DNA of 64,000 bases, taken from the NCBI RefSeq assembly GCF_004117055.1, contig NZ_CP026363.1, positions 1,036,001 to 1,100,000 on the forward strand. The letters run 5' to 3'. Under the pieces are notes generated by a model. That model did not search any database. It worked only from the letters and a program-made list of their open reading frames with translations, and had not been told where the DNA came from. This stretch comes from Brevibacillus agri (GTDB lineage Bacteria; Bacillota; Bacilli; Brevibacillales; Brevibacillaceae). This document shows, in pieces, positions 5,455 through 63,905 of this stretch. The stretch's first letter is position 1; each line of letters begins with the position of its first letter. The position numbers were made by a program, and so were the translations under genes.

Positions 5455-6666
5455 GTGAATTTTCCATATTCGAGCAAAAAGTGGATGAGCATCAGTTTGG
5501 CGGCTGTACTCACAACCGCAATTGGAGCAGGAACCTTGACGGCATCTGCCAATACAGGAACAGAGGCGGCGAAACCGGCGCAGCCAGCACAAACCGTAGC
5601 AGCGGAAACAGGCAATACAACGACATCCGAGACTGCTGCACTGGAAGAGCTGACGCTGGAAAAAGCGATTGAACAAGCGTTGCAAACCAACAATACGCTC
5701 CAGAATGCACGTATTGACGCGAAAAATGCGGATTTGAACGAATCGCTTTCCTATATTACCTCTGCTGACATGTCCAAAGATATGATCGATTCCCTGGAAG
5801 GAACAAAAGAACAATTGAACGCCGCAAAGGCCAAGTACGTAGGGAATGCACAAGCAGAGATCAACAAAAAACTGAATGCACTGATGGTGAAAGCTACAGA
5901 ATCCAAAATCAGATTGGGTGCGCAAAATGTCTACTACAACCTCATTTTTGCGCAGGACGACTATGAATTGAAAAAACAAAGCCTGACGCGTGCAGAAACG
6001 CAACTGAAAGTGGCCAAAGCGGCATTTGATGTGGGAACAAAAGCAAAAACAGACGTCCTGCAGGCAGAAATGGGCGTAGCAGGGGCAAAGGCTGCTTTGA
6101 CATCCGCAGCAAATGCGGTAGAAGTAGCGCGCATGGATTTGAATGATTTTCTTGGCGTTGACCTGAACAAAAAGTGGAAGATCGTCTCCAGCAACAAACA
6201 GGTTGCGCCGATTTCCTTGACTTTGGAGCAGGCACAAGCTCAGGCTCTTTCCAAACGTGTCGAGATGACAAAAGTACAGGAAGAACTGAATTTGGCAGAA
6301 CTGAACGTCAAATTGATCGAGGAGTATTCGGCATTGTCGACCCTCCAAGGCCGCCAAGCCCGCAATAACGTAGATAAGTCGAAAATGGCGATCGAGGAAC
6401 AAAAACGCACCATCTCCAAGGAAGTTGCCCAAGCTTATTTGAATCTGAATGCGGCAAGAGAGGCGATTGAGTTCCAGAAAACAGCGAAAAACTCTGCTGC
6501 CGAGAGCTACCGTCTGACAAATCTGCGCTTTGAAAACGGCCTGGCGACTACACTTGAAGTGATCCAGGCAGAAGAAGAGCTTTCCGACCGCGAGAACCAG
6601 TACCAAAAAGCGATTCTCAACTACAACCTGGCTGTCGTAAACTTTGAAACAGCACTCGGCAACTAG
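5455..6666 (+). CDS. TolC-like (outer membrane efflux family) secreted coiled-coil protein
   Basis: 403 residues from GTG, preceded by aaaggagtgg. A signal peptide (SKKW, hydrophobic 11-28, TASA cleavage near 32) is followed by a low-complexity Ala/Thr/Glu linker (33-65). The rest is almost wholly helical and falls into two related halves. Each half carries the outer-membrane-factor type segment: LEKAIEQALQTNNTLQNARI and later LEQAQAQALSKRVEMTKVQE, plus LRFENGLATTLEVIQAEEEL near the end. In Gram-negatives these helices build the periplasmic TolC barrel. A Gram-positive cell has no outer membrane, so the role here is unknown; location next to the S-layer operon suggests the cell envelope. No membrane-fusion or pump gene is adjacent. 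Confidence 0.85.
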   Translation: MNFPYSSKKWMSISLAAVLTTAIGAGTLTASANTGTEAAKPAQPAQTVAAETGNTTTSETAALEELTLEKAIEQALQTNNTLQNARIDAKNADLNESLSYITSADMSKDMIDSLEGTKEQLNAAKAKYVGNAQAEINKKLNALMVKATESKIRLGAQNVYYNLIFAQDDYELKKQSLTRAETQLKVAKAAFDVGTKAKTDVLQAEMGVAGAKAALTSAANAVEVARMDLNDFLGVDLNKKWKIVSSNKQVAPISLTLEQAQAQALSKRVEMTKVQEELNLAELNVKLIEEYSALSTLQGRQARNNVDKSKMAIEEQKRTISKEVAQAYLNLNAAREAIEFQKTAKNSAAESYRLTNLRFENGLATTLEVIQAEEELSDRENQYQKAILNYNLAVVNFETALGN

Positions 6667-26442: not shown

Positions 26443-26463
26443 TTATCCACACTCTGTGGATAA
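26443..26463. promoter_or_regulatory. Inverted pair of DnaA boxes
   Basis: TTATCCACA (26443-26451) and its exact complement TGTGGATAA (26455-26463), 3 bp apart, 12 bp after the Spo0E-family stop codon. Both match the DnaA consensus. It could equally act as a hairpin, though no T run follows. Confidence 0.6.
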
Positions 26464-56344: not shown

Positions 56345-57146
56345 CGATCGGTTGTACGATGAGAAAGAGCTGGAGAAAAGCTGGCTCATCAGCTACAGCG
56401 ACTTGATTACGCTACTGTTCGTCATCGTCATTATCATCGCGGCGACGCAAATGACGAAGATTCAGACCCAGCGCGAAGCCGCCAAAAAGGAGCAAGCTGA
56501 ACAGCAGGCCAATCTGAAGCAGGTGCATGAGAGCCTCGATCTGTTGAATTTGCAAAAGCTGGAGCTAGAACGCGAGATTCATCAACTGGAGGGGCAAAAA
56601 AAGGCGCTCACAGGCACCGTGGATGAAAAAGGCACACAGGAGCAAGAGCAGGCGCAAAAGAGCGTGCCAAAGCCGCCTGTCGGCATGCCGGACACGGGTG
56701 AGCGCGATATGGAGACGGTGCACAACCAGCTCTCGTCCGCTTTGGCCGAGCTGAATCTGGACTACGAGGAGACCGAAGAGGGATTGCGCATCCGCCTTCC
56801 GGAGAAAATTTTGTTCGCCAGTGGCTCTGCTGATCTCCAGGAGCAGGGGAAAGAGGTCGTAGGCACTGTAGCACGTGTGTTGCAGCGCTACGAGTACAAA
56901 GTGAGGATCGAAGGCTACACAGACGACGTGCCGATCTCGCGCAGCGCATACAAGTCCAACTGGGAGCTGTCCTCTGCCCGCGCTATTGCGGTGATGCGGG
57001 AAATGGTTGATGCATATTCCTTGCCGGCGTCGCGCTTTACGGTGGCAGGATTGGGAGAATACAGGCCACTCGTGGACAATTCGAACGAAGAGAACCGCGC
57101 GCGCAACCGCCGGGTAGAGGTTATTATTTTGGCGGAAAAAGAATAA
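56337..57146 (+). CDS. MotB-like stator protein with OmpA domain
   Basis: 269 residues from ATG 56337. A single membrane helix (22-42) carries the plug/ion-binding region SYSDLITLLFVIVIII, with the essential Asp in SYSD. A long coiled coil (45-115) leads to the OmpA-like peptidoglycan-binding domain (150-265): RIRLPEKILFASGSADLQEQ, RIEGYTDDVPI, WELSSARAIAVMREM, RNRRVEVIIL. Couples ion flow to flagellar rotation with its MotA-like partner. A terminator follows. Confidence 0.92.
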   Translation: MHDDRLYDEKELEKSWLISYSDLITLLFVIVIIIAATQMTKIQTQREAAKKEQAEQQANLKQVHESLDLLNLQKLELEREIHQLEGQKKALTGTVDEKGTQEQEQAQKSVPKPPVGMPDTGERDMETVHNQLSSALAELNLDYEETEEGLRIRLPEKILFASGSADLQEQGKEVVGTVARVLQRYEYKVRIEGYTDDVPISRSAYKSNWELSSARAIAVMREMVDAYSLPASRFTVAGLGEYRPLVDNSNEENRARNRRVEVIILAEKE

Positions 57147-57177
57147 TTCGTATTTTTCAGATAAATAGATCGTTTTC

Positions 57178-57237
57178 AGGCAGGATTTTTATATACAGGA
57201 TAGAAGTATATCCGGTGTATACGAATCCTGCCTTTTT
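57178..57237 (+). terminator. Terminator after the stator genes
   Basis: aggcaggatt/aatcctgcct 10-bp stem around a 36-nt partly paired loop, then tttt. Confidence 0.75.
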
Positions 57238-57314
57238 GCTGCTAATTCCAGTTCTATACCAAAACTCGACTCCGTAACCATAGTACCAGAGCCGCAGAAC
57301 GCGCAGGAAAATAG

Positions 57315-57358
57315 TTATACACAGCTTGTGCACAACGTCATGTGGATAATGTGGATAA
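57315..57358. promoter_or_regulatory. DnaA-box cluster
   Basis: Three consensus boxes in 44 bp: TTATACACA (57315-57323) and, on the other strand, two directly abutting TGTGGATAA (57341-57349, 57350-57358). The palindrome ttgtgcacaa (57326-57335) and a partial box (tttgtggag) lie close by. The sequence lies about 90 bp before the ABC binding-protein start, so DnaA may regulate it or be titrated here. Confidence 0.72.
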
Positions 57359-57449
57359 CTTTGTGGAGAACGCAAAAAACACATGATTTCCATGTGGACA
57401 GTGCTGGGGAAAAGTAAGCATACACAGAGAGAAACAAGGGGGATTTTTA

Positions 57450-58271
57450 ATGCGTATCGGGAAAAAGTGGTTCAAGTCTCTTGTGCTGGTCGTAGGCGTG
57501 GGGCTTTTGGTCTCAGCCTGTGGATCGGGTGGCCAGCAAAGCTCGGGAAGCGGAACTGGCGCGAGCGGCTCAGGGTCAGGCTCCGGCTCGGGTGAAAAAG
57601 TGTACGTGGTAGGAACAGATGCAGCTTATCCGCCGTTCCAGATGCTGGAGGCCGACAAAATCAGCGGCCATGACATTGACGTGATGAATGCGATCGCAGA
57701 AGCGGGAGGATTCAAGATCGAGTGGAAAAACACAGGCTGGGACCCGCTGTTCGACGGATTGGACAAAGGGACGGTGGACATCGGGATTTCGTCGATCACG
57801 ATCACGGACAAGCGCAAGGAAAAATACGATTTCTCGGATTCGTACTTCGAAGCGAATCAGCTCATTCTCGTAGCGGAAGACTCTCAGGTGACCAAGCTGG
57901 CCGATCTGAAAGGCAAAAAGATCGGGGTACAGGCCGCGACTACAGGGGAAGAAGTGGTCAAAAAGGCGTTTGGCGATACGTATCAAGGCTTGATGGGCTA
58001 TGACGACATGCCTTCGTCCGTGGACGATTTCTTCAATGGCCGTGTCGATGCAGTTGTCGGGGATAATGGCGTGCTGCAATATTACGTAAATAAAATCAAA
58101 GACAAGAAGTTCAAGCTGATAAAAGACGACTCGTTTGAAAAAGAATACTACGGAATCATGGTGAAAAAGGGCAACACGGACGCGCTGAACAAAATCAACG
58201 ACGGCTTGAAGAAAATCAAGGAAAACGGCAAGCTCCAGGAAATCTACAACCAGTACTTTGGCAGCAATTAG
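57450..58271 (+). CDS. Amino acid ABC transporter substrate-binding lipoprotein
   Basis: 273 residues. Lipoprotein signal peptide with lipobox LVSAC (Cys24), then a Gly/Ser linker (25-48). The SBP_bac_3 domain starts at VYVVGTDAAYPPFQMLE and has GHDIDVMNAIAEAGGFKIEW, DIGISSITITDKRKEKYDFS, LADLKGKKIGVQAATTGEE and VDAVVGDNGVLQYYV, the pattern of polar amino acid binders such as the glutamine or arginine type. Exposed outside the membrane, it delivers ligand to the permease encoded next. Confidence 0.93.
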   Translation: MRIGKKWFKSLVLVVGVGLLVSACGSGGQQSSGSGTGASGSGSGSGSGEKVYVVGTDAAYPPFQMLEADKISGHDIDVMNAIAEAGGFKIEWKNTGWDPLFDGLDKGTVDIGISSITITDKRKEKYDFSDSYFEANQLILVAEDSQVTKLADLKGKKIGVQAATTGEEVVKKAFGDTYQGLMGYDDMPSSVDDFFNGRVDAVVGDNGVLQYYVNKIKDKKFKLIKDDSFEKEYYGIMVKKGNTDALNKINDGLKKIKENGKLQEIYNQYFGSN

Positions 58272-58307: not shown

Positions 58308-58352
58308 TGTTTGTGACTCCAGTGCTGACATACACGAAGGGAGGACTTGCCA

Positions 58353-59027
58353 TTGGACTGGAGCGTCATCTATGAATATCGCGAGCTGTTTATCCGAGGC
58401 ATTATCAATACCATTTTACTAACGGCGGTTGCTACCGTTTGCGGGACCTTTTTGGGGTTGTTTATCAGTTTGGGCAAAATGTCGTCGAACCGCTTTTGGC
58501 GGTGGACATGCTCGATCTACGTGGAGCTTTTTCGGGGGACGCCGATGCTGGTGCAAATTTTGCTGATTCACTTCGCCGTCATCCCGTCTATCTGGGGACT
58601 GTTTTTTTCGGGAGAGAGCAGTCCGGAAGCGATCTACTCCGGATTCGTGGCGCTGTCGCTCAACGCAGCGGCCTACATCGCCGAGATTTTTCGCGCAGGG
58701 ATTCAATCGATCGATCCGGGACAGATGGAAGCGGCACGCTCGCTCGGGATGACGAAGGGGCTGGCGATGCGGCTGATTATTTTGCCGCAGGCGTTTACCC
58801 GGATGCTTCCTGCCATCGGGAACGAATTTATCGCCCTTTTAAAAGACTCCTCCCTCTGCGCCGTTATTGCGACACCGGAGTTGAATTACGCCGCCATGAA
58901 CGTGGCGAAGAGCACGTTTGAGCGCTACCCGCCGTATTTGACAGAGGCGGCTGTGTACCTGGTGCTCACGTTGTTCCTGTCGCGGGTAGTCGTAAGAGGA
59001 TTGGAGAAAAAATATTCAACGAGATAG
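58353..59027 (+). CDS. Amino acid ABC transporter permease (HisM/GlnP family)
   Basis: 224 residues from TTG 58353 (gggagga 7 bases upstream; TTG 58347 is too close). Five or so membrane helices; FRGTPMLVQILLIHF and the EAA loop EAARSLGMTKGLAMRLIILP with ALLKDSSL are family signatures. It probably forms a homodimer. No ATPase gene follows, so the importer must use an ATPase encoded elsewhere. Confidence 0.93.
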   Translation: MDWSVIYEYRELFIRGIINTILLTAVATVCGTFLGLFISLGKMSSNRFWRWTCSIYVELFRGTPMLVQILLIHFAVIPSIWGLFFSGESSPEAIYSGFVALSLNAAAYIAEIFRAGIQSIDPGQMEAARSLGMTKGLAMRLIILPQAFTRMLPAIGNEFIALLKDSSLCAVIATPELNYAAMNVAKSTFERYPPYLTEAAVYLVLTLFLSRVVVRGLEKKYSTR

Positions 59028-59119
59028 AAGAATGCAGCTTCTGATTTTGGAGAAACTAGAGGTGTACACACAAAGATTTGTAATCCAAATTTTTACAAGA
59101 GAAAGGGTTGTGCTGTTTC

Positions 59120-59317
59120 ATGCAAGGCAAAGTAAAATGGTTTAACGCAGAAAAAGGTTTTGGTTTTATCGAGCGAGAAGGTGGCGACGACGTATTTGTC
59201 CACTTTTCCGCGATTCAGTCGGATGGTTTTCGGACATTGGAAGAAGGACAAGCTGTAGAATTTGATATTGTGGAAGGCGACCGCGGGCCGCAAGCAGCCA
59301 ATGTCGTCAAACTGTAA
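59120..59317 (+). CDS. Cold-shock protein (Csp family)
   Basis: 65 residues from ATG 59120. RNP1 KGFGFIE and RNP2 VFVHFSAI are intact in the single OB fold, [20 protein letters not shown]. Binds single-stranded RNA as a chaperone. A long leader (about 90 nt) may carry cold regulation. A possible ATG four codons upstream is ignored because CspA/B/D proteins begin M(Q/E)xGxVKWFN. Confidence 0.97.
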
Positions 59318-60636: not shown

Positions 60637-61191
60637 ATGAAATTTAATATTCGTGGAGAAAACATTCAAGTCACCGCAGCACTGAAAGAGTATGTGGAAA
60701 AGAAAGTCGGCCGTCTCGAAAAATATTTCGAAACTACGCCTGCAGATGTACAAGTTACCATGCATGTACATCGTGGAGAAGGCACAATCGAGGTAACAAT
60801 CCCGCTTGCCGGGGTGATTATCCGAGCAGAAGAAACACACGAGGATATGTATGCCGCTATTGACCTGGTGGCAGAAAAGCTGGAGCGTCAAGTTCGCAAG
60901 CATAAAACGAAACTGATGCGCAAGCTGCGGGTTGATTCCGCTGCGAAAGTCGGACAGCGCGATAGTCAGCCAGTAGCTGTGATGATACCAGATGTCGATG
61001 AGGAAGATGTTGACATTGATATTGTCAGAACGAAGCGTTTTGACCTGAAACCGATGGATGCGCAGGAAGCCGTCATGCAGATGGATATGCTGGGACACAG
61101 CTTCTTCGTTTTCCAAAACAGCGATACCAACGACGTCAGCGTGGTGTACCGCCGCAACGACGGACGCTATGGTTTGATTGAACCGAAATAA
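60637..61191 (+). CDS. hpf: Ribosome hibernation promoting factor, long form
   Basis: 184 residues from ATG with ggaggttgg. N-terminal ribosome-binding domain (MKFNIRGENIQVTAALKEYV, then KVGRLEKYF) and the C-terminal dimerisation domain of long HPF (IVRTKRFDLKPMDAQEAVMQ, MDMLGHSFFVFQN). Joins 70S ribosomes into inactive 100S dimers in stationary phase. In B. subtilis this gene (yvyD) precedes secA as here. Confidence 0.96.
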   Translation: MKFNIRGENIQVTAALKEYVEKKVGRLEKYFETTPADVQVTMHVHRGEGTIEVTIPLAGVIIRAEETHEDMYAAIDLVAEKLERQVRKHKTKLMRKLRVDSAAKVGQRDSQPVAVMIPDVDEEDVDIDIVRTKRFDLKPMDAQEAVMQMDMLGHSFFVFQNSDTNDVSVVYRRNDGRYGLIEPK

Positions 61192-61385: not shown

Positions 61386-63905
61386 ATGTTAGGACTCGTT
61401 AAAAAGATATTTGGCGACAGCAATGAACGTGAAGTGAAAAAGATGTTTAAGCGCGTGGAAGCGATCAACGCGCTCGAACCAAGCATAGCAGCGCTTTCCG
61501 ACGAGCAACTGCGGGAGAAGACCGCAGAGTTCAAAGCCCGGCTGGCCCAGGGGGAGCAGTTGGACAAAATTTTGAACGAAGCATTTGCCGTTGTGCGCGA
61601 AGCATCGAAGCGGGTTTTGGGCATGCGCCACTTCGATGTCCAGTTGATTGGCGGTATGGTGTTGCAGGAAGGCCGCATTGCCGAGATGAAAACCGGTGAG
61701 GGGAAAACCTTGGTGGCTACCTTGGCGACCTACCTCAACGCTCTACTTGGCAAAGGCGTTCACGTCGTAACAGTGAACGAATACTTGGCAGAGCGCGACT
61801 CGCGGATCATGGGCCAACTGTACAACTTCCTCGGTCTGACAGTCGGCCTGAACAAAAACGGACTGAGCCCGGAAGAAAAGCGGGCCGCTTATGCTTGTGA
61901 CATTACGTATGGTACGAACAACGAGTTCGGCTTTGACTATTTGCGCGACAACATGGTTCTGTACAAGGAACAGATGGTGCAGCGCCCGCTCTTTTTCGCC
62001 ATCATCGACGAGGTGGACAGCATCCTGATCGACGAGGCGCGGACGCCGCTGATTATTTCCGGATCGGCAAACAAATCGACAGAGCTCTACTACATCTGCT
62101 CGCACTTTGTGAAGCGGCTGGAGCCGGAAAAAGACTTTACGATTGACGAAAAGCTGAAGATCGTCAACCTGACAGACGAAGGTGTGGGCAAGGTCGAGAA
62201 AGCTTTCAACATCGACAACCTGTACGATACGGCACACATCACCTTGAACCACCACATTACAGCGGCATTGAAAGCCCAGGTCCTGTTCAAGCGCGACGTA
62301 GACTACGTGGTGCAAGAGGGCGAGGTTGTGATCGTCGACGAGTTCACGGGCCGTCTGATGGTGGGACGCCGGTACAGCGACGGTTTGCATCAGGCGATTG
62401 AAGCCAAGGAAGGTCTGCGCGTGCAGAGCGAGAGCATGACGCTCGCTACGATCACCTTGCAAAACTACTTCCGTATGTATGAAAAGCTTGCCGGTATGAC
62501 CGGGACGGCGAAAACAGAGGAAGAAGAGTTCAAAAAGATTTACGGTCTGGACGTTGTCGTCATTCCAACGAACAAGCCGGTCATTCGCCAAGACTTGCCG
62601 GACCTGGTTTTCAAAACCGAAGCTGCCAAGTACCGTGCGGTTGTGAACGACATCGTCGAACGTCATAAAAAAGGCCAGCCGATTCTCGTCGGTACGATTT
62701 CCATTGAAAACTCGGAGCGGCTGTCGCACATGCTGAAGCAAAAAGGCGTTCCGCACAGCGTGTTGAATGCGAAGCATCACGAGCGCGAGGCGGAAATCGT
62801 CGCGCGCGCAGGTCAATACGGTGCGGTGACGATTGCTACCAACATGGCCGGTCGCGGTACGGACATCCAGTTGGGCGAAGGCGTAGCGGAATTGGGCGGC
62901 CTGCACATTATCGGTACAGAGCGTCACGAGAGCCGCCGGATCGACAACCAGTTGCGCGGTCGTGCCGGGCGTCAAGGGGACCCGGGTTCCTCCCAGTTCT
63001 TCCTGTCGATGCAGGATGAGCTGATGCGCCGCTTTGGTGCCGACAATATCATGAACATGATGGATCGTCTGGGCATGGAAGAAGACATGCCGATCGAGAG
63101 CCGTCTGGTTACCCGTGCGGTAGAATCTGCGCAAAAACGTGTCGAAGGAGCCAACTTCGATGCACGGAAAGGCGTACTCCAGTACGACGACGTGATGAAC
63201 CAGCAGCGCCTCGTCGTTTACAAACAGCGCAAAGACATCCTGGAGCAAGAAAACCTCAGCGATGTTGCGCTCAACATGATTTACAGCGTGCTGGAGCGTG
63301 CTGTCGAGCAGCATTGCCCAAAAGAAGAGGTACCGGAGGATTGGGACCTGCAAGCATTGGCCGATGCGGCGAACAACGGCTTCCTGCACGATGAAACCAT
63401 TACCGTCTCCATGCTGAAAGGCAAGGAAGCAGAGGAAATCGTCGAGTTGCTGAAAGCCGAAGTCGTCAAACAGTACAAAGAGCGCGAAGCTCAAATCGGC
63501 GAGATGATGCGCGAGTTCGAAAAAGTGGTCATTCTGCGCGCTGTCGACAGCAAATGGATGGATCACATCGACGCGATGGATCAACTGCGCCAAGGGATTC
63601 ACCTGCGTGCTTACGCGCAAAACGATCCGCTGCGCGAGTACCAGTTCGAAGGCTACGAGATGTATCAAGCGATGCTGGCTTCCGTACAGGAAGAGGTGGC
63701 CATGTACATCATGAAGGCCGAAGTGAGCCAAAACCTGGAGCGCCAGGATGTCATCCGCGGCCAGGGCATCGACCCGAACCAACTGCAGACGTCAGGCCCA
63801 TCCGACCGTCCGGACCCTGAGACGTCTGGCGATGCCGACCCGAAAAACCGCGCGCAGCGCCGTGCCCAGGAGCAGGAGCGCCGTCGCCAAAACAAAAAAC
63901 AGTAA
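61386..63905 (+). CDS. secA: Preprotein translocase ATPase SecA
   Basis: 839 residues from ATG 61386 (ggaagggg upstream). NBD1 Walker [12 protein letters not shown] (101-111), [19 protein letters not shown], the cross-linking domain, NBD2 with [13 protein letters not shown] and [17 protein letters not shown], and the helical scaffold [20 protein letters not shown]. Position after hpf marks it as the housekeeping SecA1. The usual C-terminal zinc motif (CxCGSGKKYKxCC) is absent; the protein ends in a basic Arg/Gln tail ([20 protein letters not shown]). A terminator follows. Confidence 0.97.

Follow-up and report, generated by a model that had tools for sequence, protein, structure and literature searches.

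The window analysed here (64,000 nucleotides of Brevibacillus agri, positions 1036001-1100000 of a chromosome of 5,374,818 bases, 5.37 Mb) carries an ordered array of DnaA boxes, and the conserved entity is its address: flagellar or comFC genes, the array, an optional importer, csp, hpf and secA, with the importer being incidental. Because distant relatives have this ordered cluster at the corresponding chromosomal address whichever gene adjoins it, replication control is favoured over regulation of the importer, and the array more likely helps to control replication than the neighbouring importer. Judging from sequence, we consider it probable, without great assurance, that the array is a non-oriC DnaA-box cluster at a fixed address, forming an origin-proximal platform for DnaA oligomers that would restrain initiation.

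The box array in B. agri and its conservation within the genus

Motif matching in the sequence places three perfect DnaA boxes within 44 bp of the window (Table 1). The coordinates and the abutting pair given in the initial annotation were borne out, and the palindrome TTGTGCACAA that it had seen nearby is present at 57326-57335. The group is rounded off by a near-box, TTCTCCACA, on the minus strand at 57362-57370. Read along the plus strand, the resulting triple consists of TGTGGATAA, an abutting TGTGGATAA, three unspecified nucleotides and TGTGGAGAA (TGTGnATAA).

Exact TTATNCACA occurs five times in the 64-kb window, as compared to a mean of 1.5 in shuffled sequences (five or more in 1 of 100 shuffles), and the whole B. 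agri genome contains 65 exact copies of TTATMCACA versus 30 of the reversed motif. The array is the tightest box group in the genome: nowhere else in a whole-genome scan do three boxes fall within 44 bp, and by our own Poisson estimate 65 random sites would be expected to produce three in 44 bp about 1e-5 times. The array occupies chromosome positions 1093315-1093370 and dnaA positions 545358-546680; the distance of 546 kb (10.2% of the chromosome) places the array outside the dnaA-dnaN origin. Past the array, the gene order is SBP_bac_3, permease, cold-shock protein, an antisense HD-GYP-like gene (by eye), hpf and secA.

Table 1. Features of the box array and its surroundings, in window coordinates; genus counts refer to an alignment of 26 genus genomes.
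Feature	Position	Strand	Remark
Terminator-like inverted repeat and T-run after MotB-like gene, separating that gene from the array	57178-57237	+	by eye
Whole conserved array block	57314-57374	.	mean column identity 0.94
DnaA box TTATACACA	57315-57323	+	perfect in this genome alone; relatives mostly TTATnCCCA
Palindrome TTGTGCACAA, a weak DnaA box TGTGCACAA, 14 bp before the triple	57326-57335	.	26/26 genus genomes
Conserved core, ordered DnaA-box triple	57341-57370	-	starts 0/+9/+21
DnaA box TTATCCACA, perfect	57341-57349	-	perfect in 23/26 genus genomes
DnaA box TTATCCACA, perfect, abutting the 57341-57349 box	57350-57358	-	perfect in 21/26; TGTGGACAA in 4 more
Third box of the triple, TTCTCCACA, 1 mismatch	57362-57370	-	TGTGGAGAA in 23/26 genus genomes
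Box-like TGTGGACAG, inside the downstream conserved stretch 57392-57412	57393-57401	-	TGTGGACAN in 24/26
SBP_bac_3 amino-acid-type solute-binding protein, downstream neighbour	57450-58271	+	Pfam/TIGR name
ABC permease (BPD_transp_1)	58347-59027	+	Pfam/TIGR name
Cold-shock protein, in the conserved neighbourhood	59108-59317	+	Pfam/TIGR name
hpf (S30AE), anchor of the conserved address	60637-61191	+	Pfam/TIGR name
secA, anchor of the conserved address	61386-63905	+	Pfam/TIGR name

Across the 26 aligned genus genomes, mean column identity reaches 0.94 at 57314-57374, compared with 0.65 for the upstream segment 57150-57300; it is 0.90 at 57392-57412, a stretch that holds a further box-like TGTGGACA. 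As to a loss of boxes in close relatives, a possibility raised in the initial annotation, the boxes at 57341 and 57350 are kept (TGTGGATAA in 23 and 21 of the 26 genomes, respectively, the latter with TGTGGACAA in four others), and the box at 57315 is not. What is conserved thus differs somewhat from the three boxes first listed, since TTATACACA at 57315 is perfect in only 1 of 26 genomes, that of B. agri itself. In a B. reuszeri strain (L008, around position 5870), a transposase-end-like sequence replaces the stretch just upstream, and by eye the array is intact from CCCAGC onward.

Elsewhere in the window, a second pair of perfect boxes, convergent in orientation (TTATCCACActcTGTGGATAA), lies at 26443-26463, just after a small Spo0E-like open frame (by eye). 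Conservation of this pair as a DnaA site is improbable, since a hairpin resembling it was found in only one other of the 26 genus genomes (G016); it may represent a repeat of the terminator type. The sole Rfam match in the window is a SAM riboswitch (RF00162, 34136-34236, 69.4 bits), and the search for plasmid matches returned none.

A fixed address and a fixed box grammar

The surroundings of the array in other Bacilli were assessed in two ways. (i) A pattern derived from the array (up to 3 mismatches) was found in 45 of 398 class genomes, with none for the reversed control. Among 20 non-genus loci picked because they matched this pattern (L091-L110), 17 show the same flagellar-(importer)-csp-hpf-secA neighbourhood; in 8 of these 17 (L093-L095, L101-L104, L107) the importer is missing and the array stays. 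In L108-L110 the pattern lies elsewhere than hpf; in L108 and L109, a triple-like array is flanked by thrC and by what is, by eye, an HD-domain hydrolase gene, an address that differs from both hpf and tsaD. L106, with no hpf in its stretch, was dropped from box-cluster scoring. (ii) Sixty regions upstream of hpf were sampled by genus, disregarding boxes, among the hpf matches listed; families with weaker hpf similarity fall outside this survey. A box cluster (score of at least 7) is present in 19 of these 60 unselected regions, a denominator that includes three regions shortened by contig ends (L114, L134, L154) and a second hpf copy (L164); the reversed motif gave 0 of 60. The remaining 41 regions fall under the cut-off, so the element is absent or degenerate in many Bacilli families.

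In these 19 regions the cluster is located between the binding-protein and permease genes (10 regions), before the binding protein (6), before csp with no importer (2) or directly before hpf (1). The importer is also absent beside the array in L147-L149. The next gene is thus a binding protein, permease, csp or hpf according to family, with no single conserved target gene among them. The initial annotation had linked the array to an amino-acid importer; the importer is not supported as the target, as the array persists without the importer and sits beyond the binding-protein gene in 10 of the 60 regions. Importer regulation as the conserved function was rejected because the neighbour changes between families.

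Alignment of the clusters by eye yielded the triple TGTGGATAA-TGTGGATAA-nnn-TGTGnATAA. With up to 3 mismatches it occurs in all 19 unselected clusters, always on the hpf strand, and with the pattern-selected loci added it lies on the hpf strand in 33 of 33, the reversed triple being found in none of the regions. In the class as a whole, the triple pattern is present in 149 of 299 genomes, compared to 1 of 299 for the reversed pattern. Of the matches away from hpf, twenty were read: 11 at tsaD (gcp), 3 at ydiF with no adjoining tsaD, 1 in dnaA-dnaN and 5 elsewhere. In the single dnaA-dnaN case (L178, G222:C1:1-4500, family f17), a GC run and DnaA-trio-like repeats come directly after the triple, and therefore the same grammar serves inside an origin. 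The TsaD genes of these Bacilli loci and of the non-Bacilli loci, as well as MnmE, YwlC, YdiF, ComFC, MTHFS and DnaN, are named by eye or from general knowledge.

As a positive control, the 3' side of tsaD was scored, and a box cluster was found in 48 of 60 genomes (control, 0 of 60). The tsaD cluster of B. agri itself contains no close triple, the best having 6 mismatches. Mutual exclusion of the hpf and tsaD clusters was considered and found no support at the level of clusters (both, 24; tsaD only, 24; hpf only, 8; none, 4; Fisher p 0.35). For the strict triple the counts are hpf only 29, tsaD only 12, both 3 and none 16 (p 0.006, a value that ignores kinship). In this exclusivity count, 15 of the 60 genomes had entered via the array-pattern search or by genus membership.

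The triple extends beyond the Bacilli. With up to 2 mismatches it occurs in 96 of 199 genomes of the phylum, among which a few are Bacilli (control, 0), and exactly two copies are present in 33 of the 199. The 47 non-Bacilli loci inspected, one per genome and only with triples of up to 2 mismatches, comprise 17 obtained by search and 30 hand-picked from the list; tsaD was recognised in them by sequence motif. Of these loci, 21 are of the hpf/importer type and 17 of the tsaD type (together 38 of 47). The others have only comFC or fliS neighbours (2), share a neighbour with the tsaD type (1) or lie elsewhere (6), one of the latter (L312) being one gene beyond a tsaD-like gene. At tsaD the non-Bacilli triple is on the tsaD strand in 17 of 17 loci. 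At hpf (within L277-L323) it is opposite to hpf or the binding protein in 21 of 21, as opposed to the same strand in 33 of 33 Bacilli loci.

The boxes are thus packed beyond chance in a short non-coding stretch, outside dnaA-dnaN, and kept at an orthologous position, as expected of a DnaA-box cluster. The original proposal of such a cluster away from oriC is supported by the strong constraint and by the one grammar that recurs here and at tsaD, a place where binding of B. subtilis DnaA is known.

Ten Bacilli genomes carry dnaA, the array and tsaD on a single contig. In these, the distance from dnaA amounts to 4.7-10.6% of the chromosome for the array and to 7.7-15.1% for tsaD, and the two occupy opposite arms in all but one of the ten. 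The two triples are likewise on opposite arms in all five non-Bacilli genomes that have both on the dnaA contig, 8-19% away by rounded genome sizes, where the genes were read beside one copy per pair. Distance alone is a weak argument, because other causes may keep hpf and tsaD close to the origin; the geometry is compatible with a sink that doubles early but falls short of proof.

Proposed replication control and the competing explanations

DnaA on same-orientation tandem boxes can nucleate an oligomer. At the array, the tandem boxes would load DnaA head to tail, giving a small oligomer on double-stranded DNA that has no unwinding element. Since 5-11% of the chromosome separates it from dnaA in the Bacilli genomes measured, the site would be copied soon after initiation; bound, and perhaps inactivated, DnaA would thereby double early, free ATP-DnaA would fall and re-initiation would be restrained. 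The array would most likely serve to retain ATP-DnaA, perhaps also inactivating it, shortly after the fork has passed. We infer DnaA binding, oligomer formation and an effect on initiation at the array; a transcriptional side effect on the neighbouring gene is possible.

A precedent comes from B. subtilis, in which deletion of six non-oriC clusters led to early initiation (Okumura 2012, as cited in the parts of PMC5295017 and PMC13220808 consulted here). Simple titration is argued against, because roughly 10-fold over-production of DnaA did not cause over-initiation in B. subtilis, according to the same portion of PMC13220808. The class-level inversion of strand at hpf also counts against a plain sink, which would have no need of such a difference. 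The array at hpf is dispensable, because the address is empty or degenerate in many of the Bacilli sampled and is not named among the 20 strongest B. subtilis regions.

Among the competing explanations, we judge it rather unlikely that the main role of DnaA at this site is to regulate transcription of the downstream gene (the importer; elsewhere the permease, csp or hpf), which would couple nutrient uptake, a cold-shock protein or ribosome hibernation to the state of replication. Such a role would suit the position of the array, which is usually 33-327 bp before the next callable open frame (29 of 33 loci; 636-762 bp in the other 4), the activation of sda and repression of several operons by B. 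subtilis DnaA described in excerpts of PMC4447404, and the recurrence of importer genes beside the array even outside the Bacilli, where a binding-protein gene adjoins it in 5 of 47 loci (L289, L294, L295, L302, L305). However, the gene that follows varies, the triple is oriented differently towards it in different classes, and no consensus promoter was found at 57100-57500, where 0.9 would be expected by chance.

An equal mix, in which a replication-control cluster would also tune by its occupancy whichever promoter adjoins it, is less probable still. It would accord with the mapped B. subtilis clusters, which in the consulted part of PMC4447404 include promoter regions (sda, ywlC) as well as a site between two gene ends (gcp-ydiF), but the neighbour changes between families.

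It is very improbable that some other protein binds the block, with TTGTGCACAA at the centre of its site, and that the DnaA boxes are coincidental. The palindrome, which is no consensus DnaA box, is indeed the only named element that is fully invariant in the genus (26 of 26 genomes); outside the genus, however, the triple is kept and a palindrome-like box is frequently lacking (16 of 33 hpf-locus triples have a TGTGNACAA box, with up to 2 mismatches, at -14), and tsaD, where DnaA is known to bind, carries this triple too. Finally, a dormant or secondary replication origin, suggested by the resemblance of the abutting tandem pair to the pair beside the oriC unwinding element, was dismissed as the remotest of the readings, because DnaA-trios do not follow the boxes: at least 3 TAN trios within 40 bp were found after 0 of 33 hpf-locus triples, as opposed to 19 of 21 dnaA-dnaN regions with a tandem pair followed by at least 3, the oriC scan being the more generous in that it took the best pair per region.

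Replication control, the preferred reading, bears on the question of how Gram-positive bacteria without Hda, SeqA, datA and DARS limit initiation. A fixed grammar at two addresses across the phylum would offer small deletable targets in many species, and the order, spacing and strand of the boxes provide a rule for finding such loci by sequence. The array also serves as a warning that inferring function from the neighbouring gene would mislead.

Comparison with known DnaA-box loci

The B. subtilis clusters at trmE, ywlC, ywcI/vpr, sda/yqeG and yydA are, like the array, groups of boxes outside the dnaA-dnaN origin. On the B. agri chromosome, boxes at mnmE (trmE; 550843-551158) and a box at the start of ywlC (987979-987987), both genes being named by eye, are placed as in the mapped B. 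subtilis clusters. The oriC basal unwinding system (DnaA-boxes 6/7 and DnaA-trios) shares with the array its tandem, same-orientation and (nearly) abutting boxes, whereas the array is without trios; the rule of a tandem box pair plus DnaA-trios for oriC unwinding is taken from part of PMC8287927.

The closest B. subtilis likeness is at the gcp (tsaD)-ydiF junction, a non-oriC, origin-proximal cluster like the array but at a different address. The grammar of 0/+9/+21 is shared with the array by the 11 Bacilli tsaD loci, which were picked by the triple pattern, the B. subtilis cluster itself being known here from the literature. In the consulted excerpt of PMC4447404 the junction is among the eight strongest B. 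subtilis DnaA regions and, at low DnaA, shows a 16-fold preference for ATP-DnaA over ADP-DnaA; in the same excerpt, neither hpf (yvyD) nor secA gives its name to any of the 20 strongest in vitro regions. By title or abstract opening, the literature searched holds nothing on a DnaA cluster at hpf or secA, which is no proof of absence.

The datA and DARS loci of E. coli hydrolyse or exchange the nucleotide of DnaA with the help of IHF or Fis. These loci (datA, DARS1 and DARS2), stated in a passage of PMC13220808 to be absent from B. subtilis, are non-coding DnaA-box loci like the array, and the likeness is one of kind only; they have a conserved structure and a conserved relative distance from oriC, as reported in the section of PMC4585315 drawn on here. 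As a tentative extension, which we hold to be possible but unlikely, the Firmicutes may possess a phylum-wide pair of DnaA-handling loci (hpf-secA and tsaD), one per chromosome arm at a similar distance from oriC and both built on the fixed-strand 0/+9/+21 triple. Such a pair would be a datA/DARS counterpart spread over both arms, acting on the nucleotide or oligomer state of DnaA instead of being a mere sink, and of which B. subtilis would have kept the tsaD member and apparently not the hpf one.
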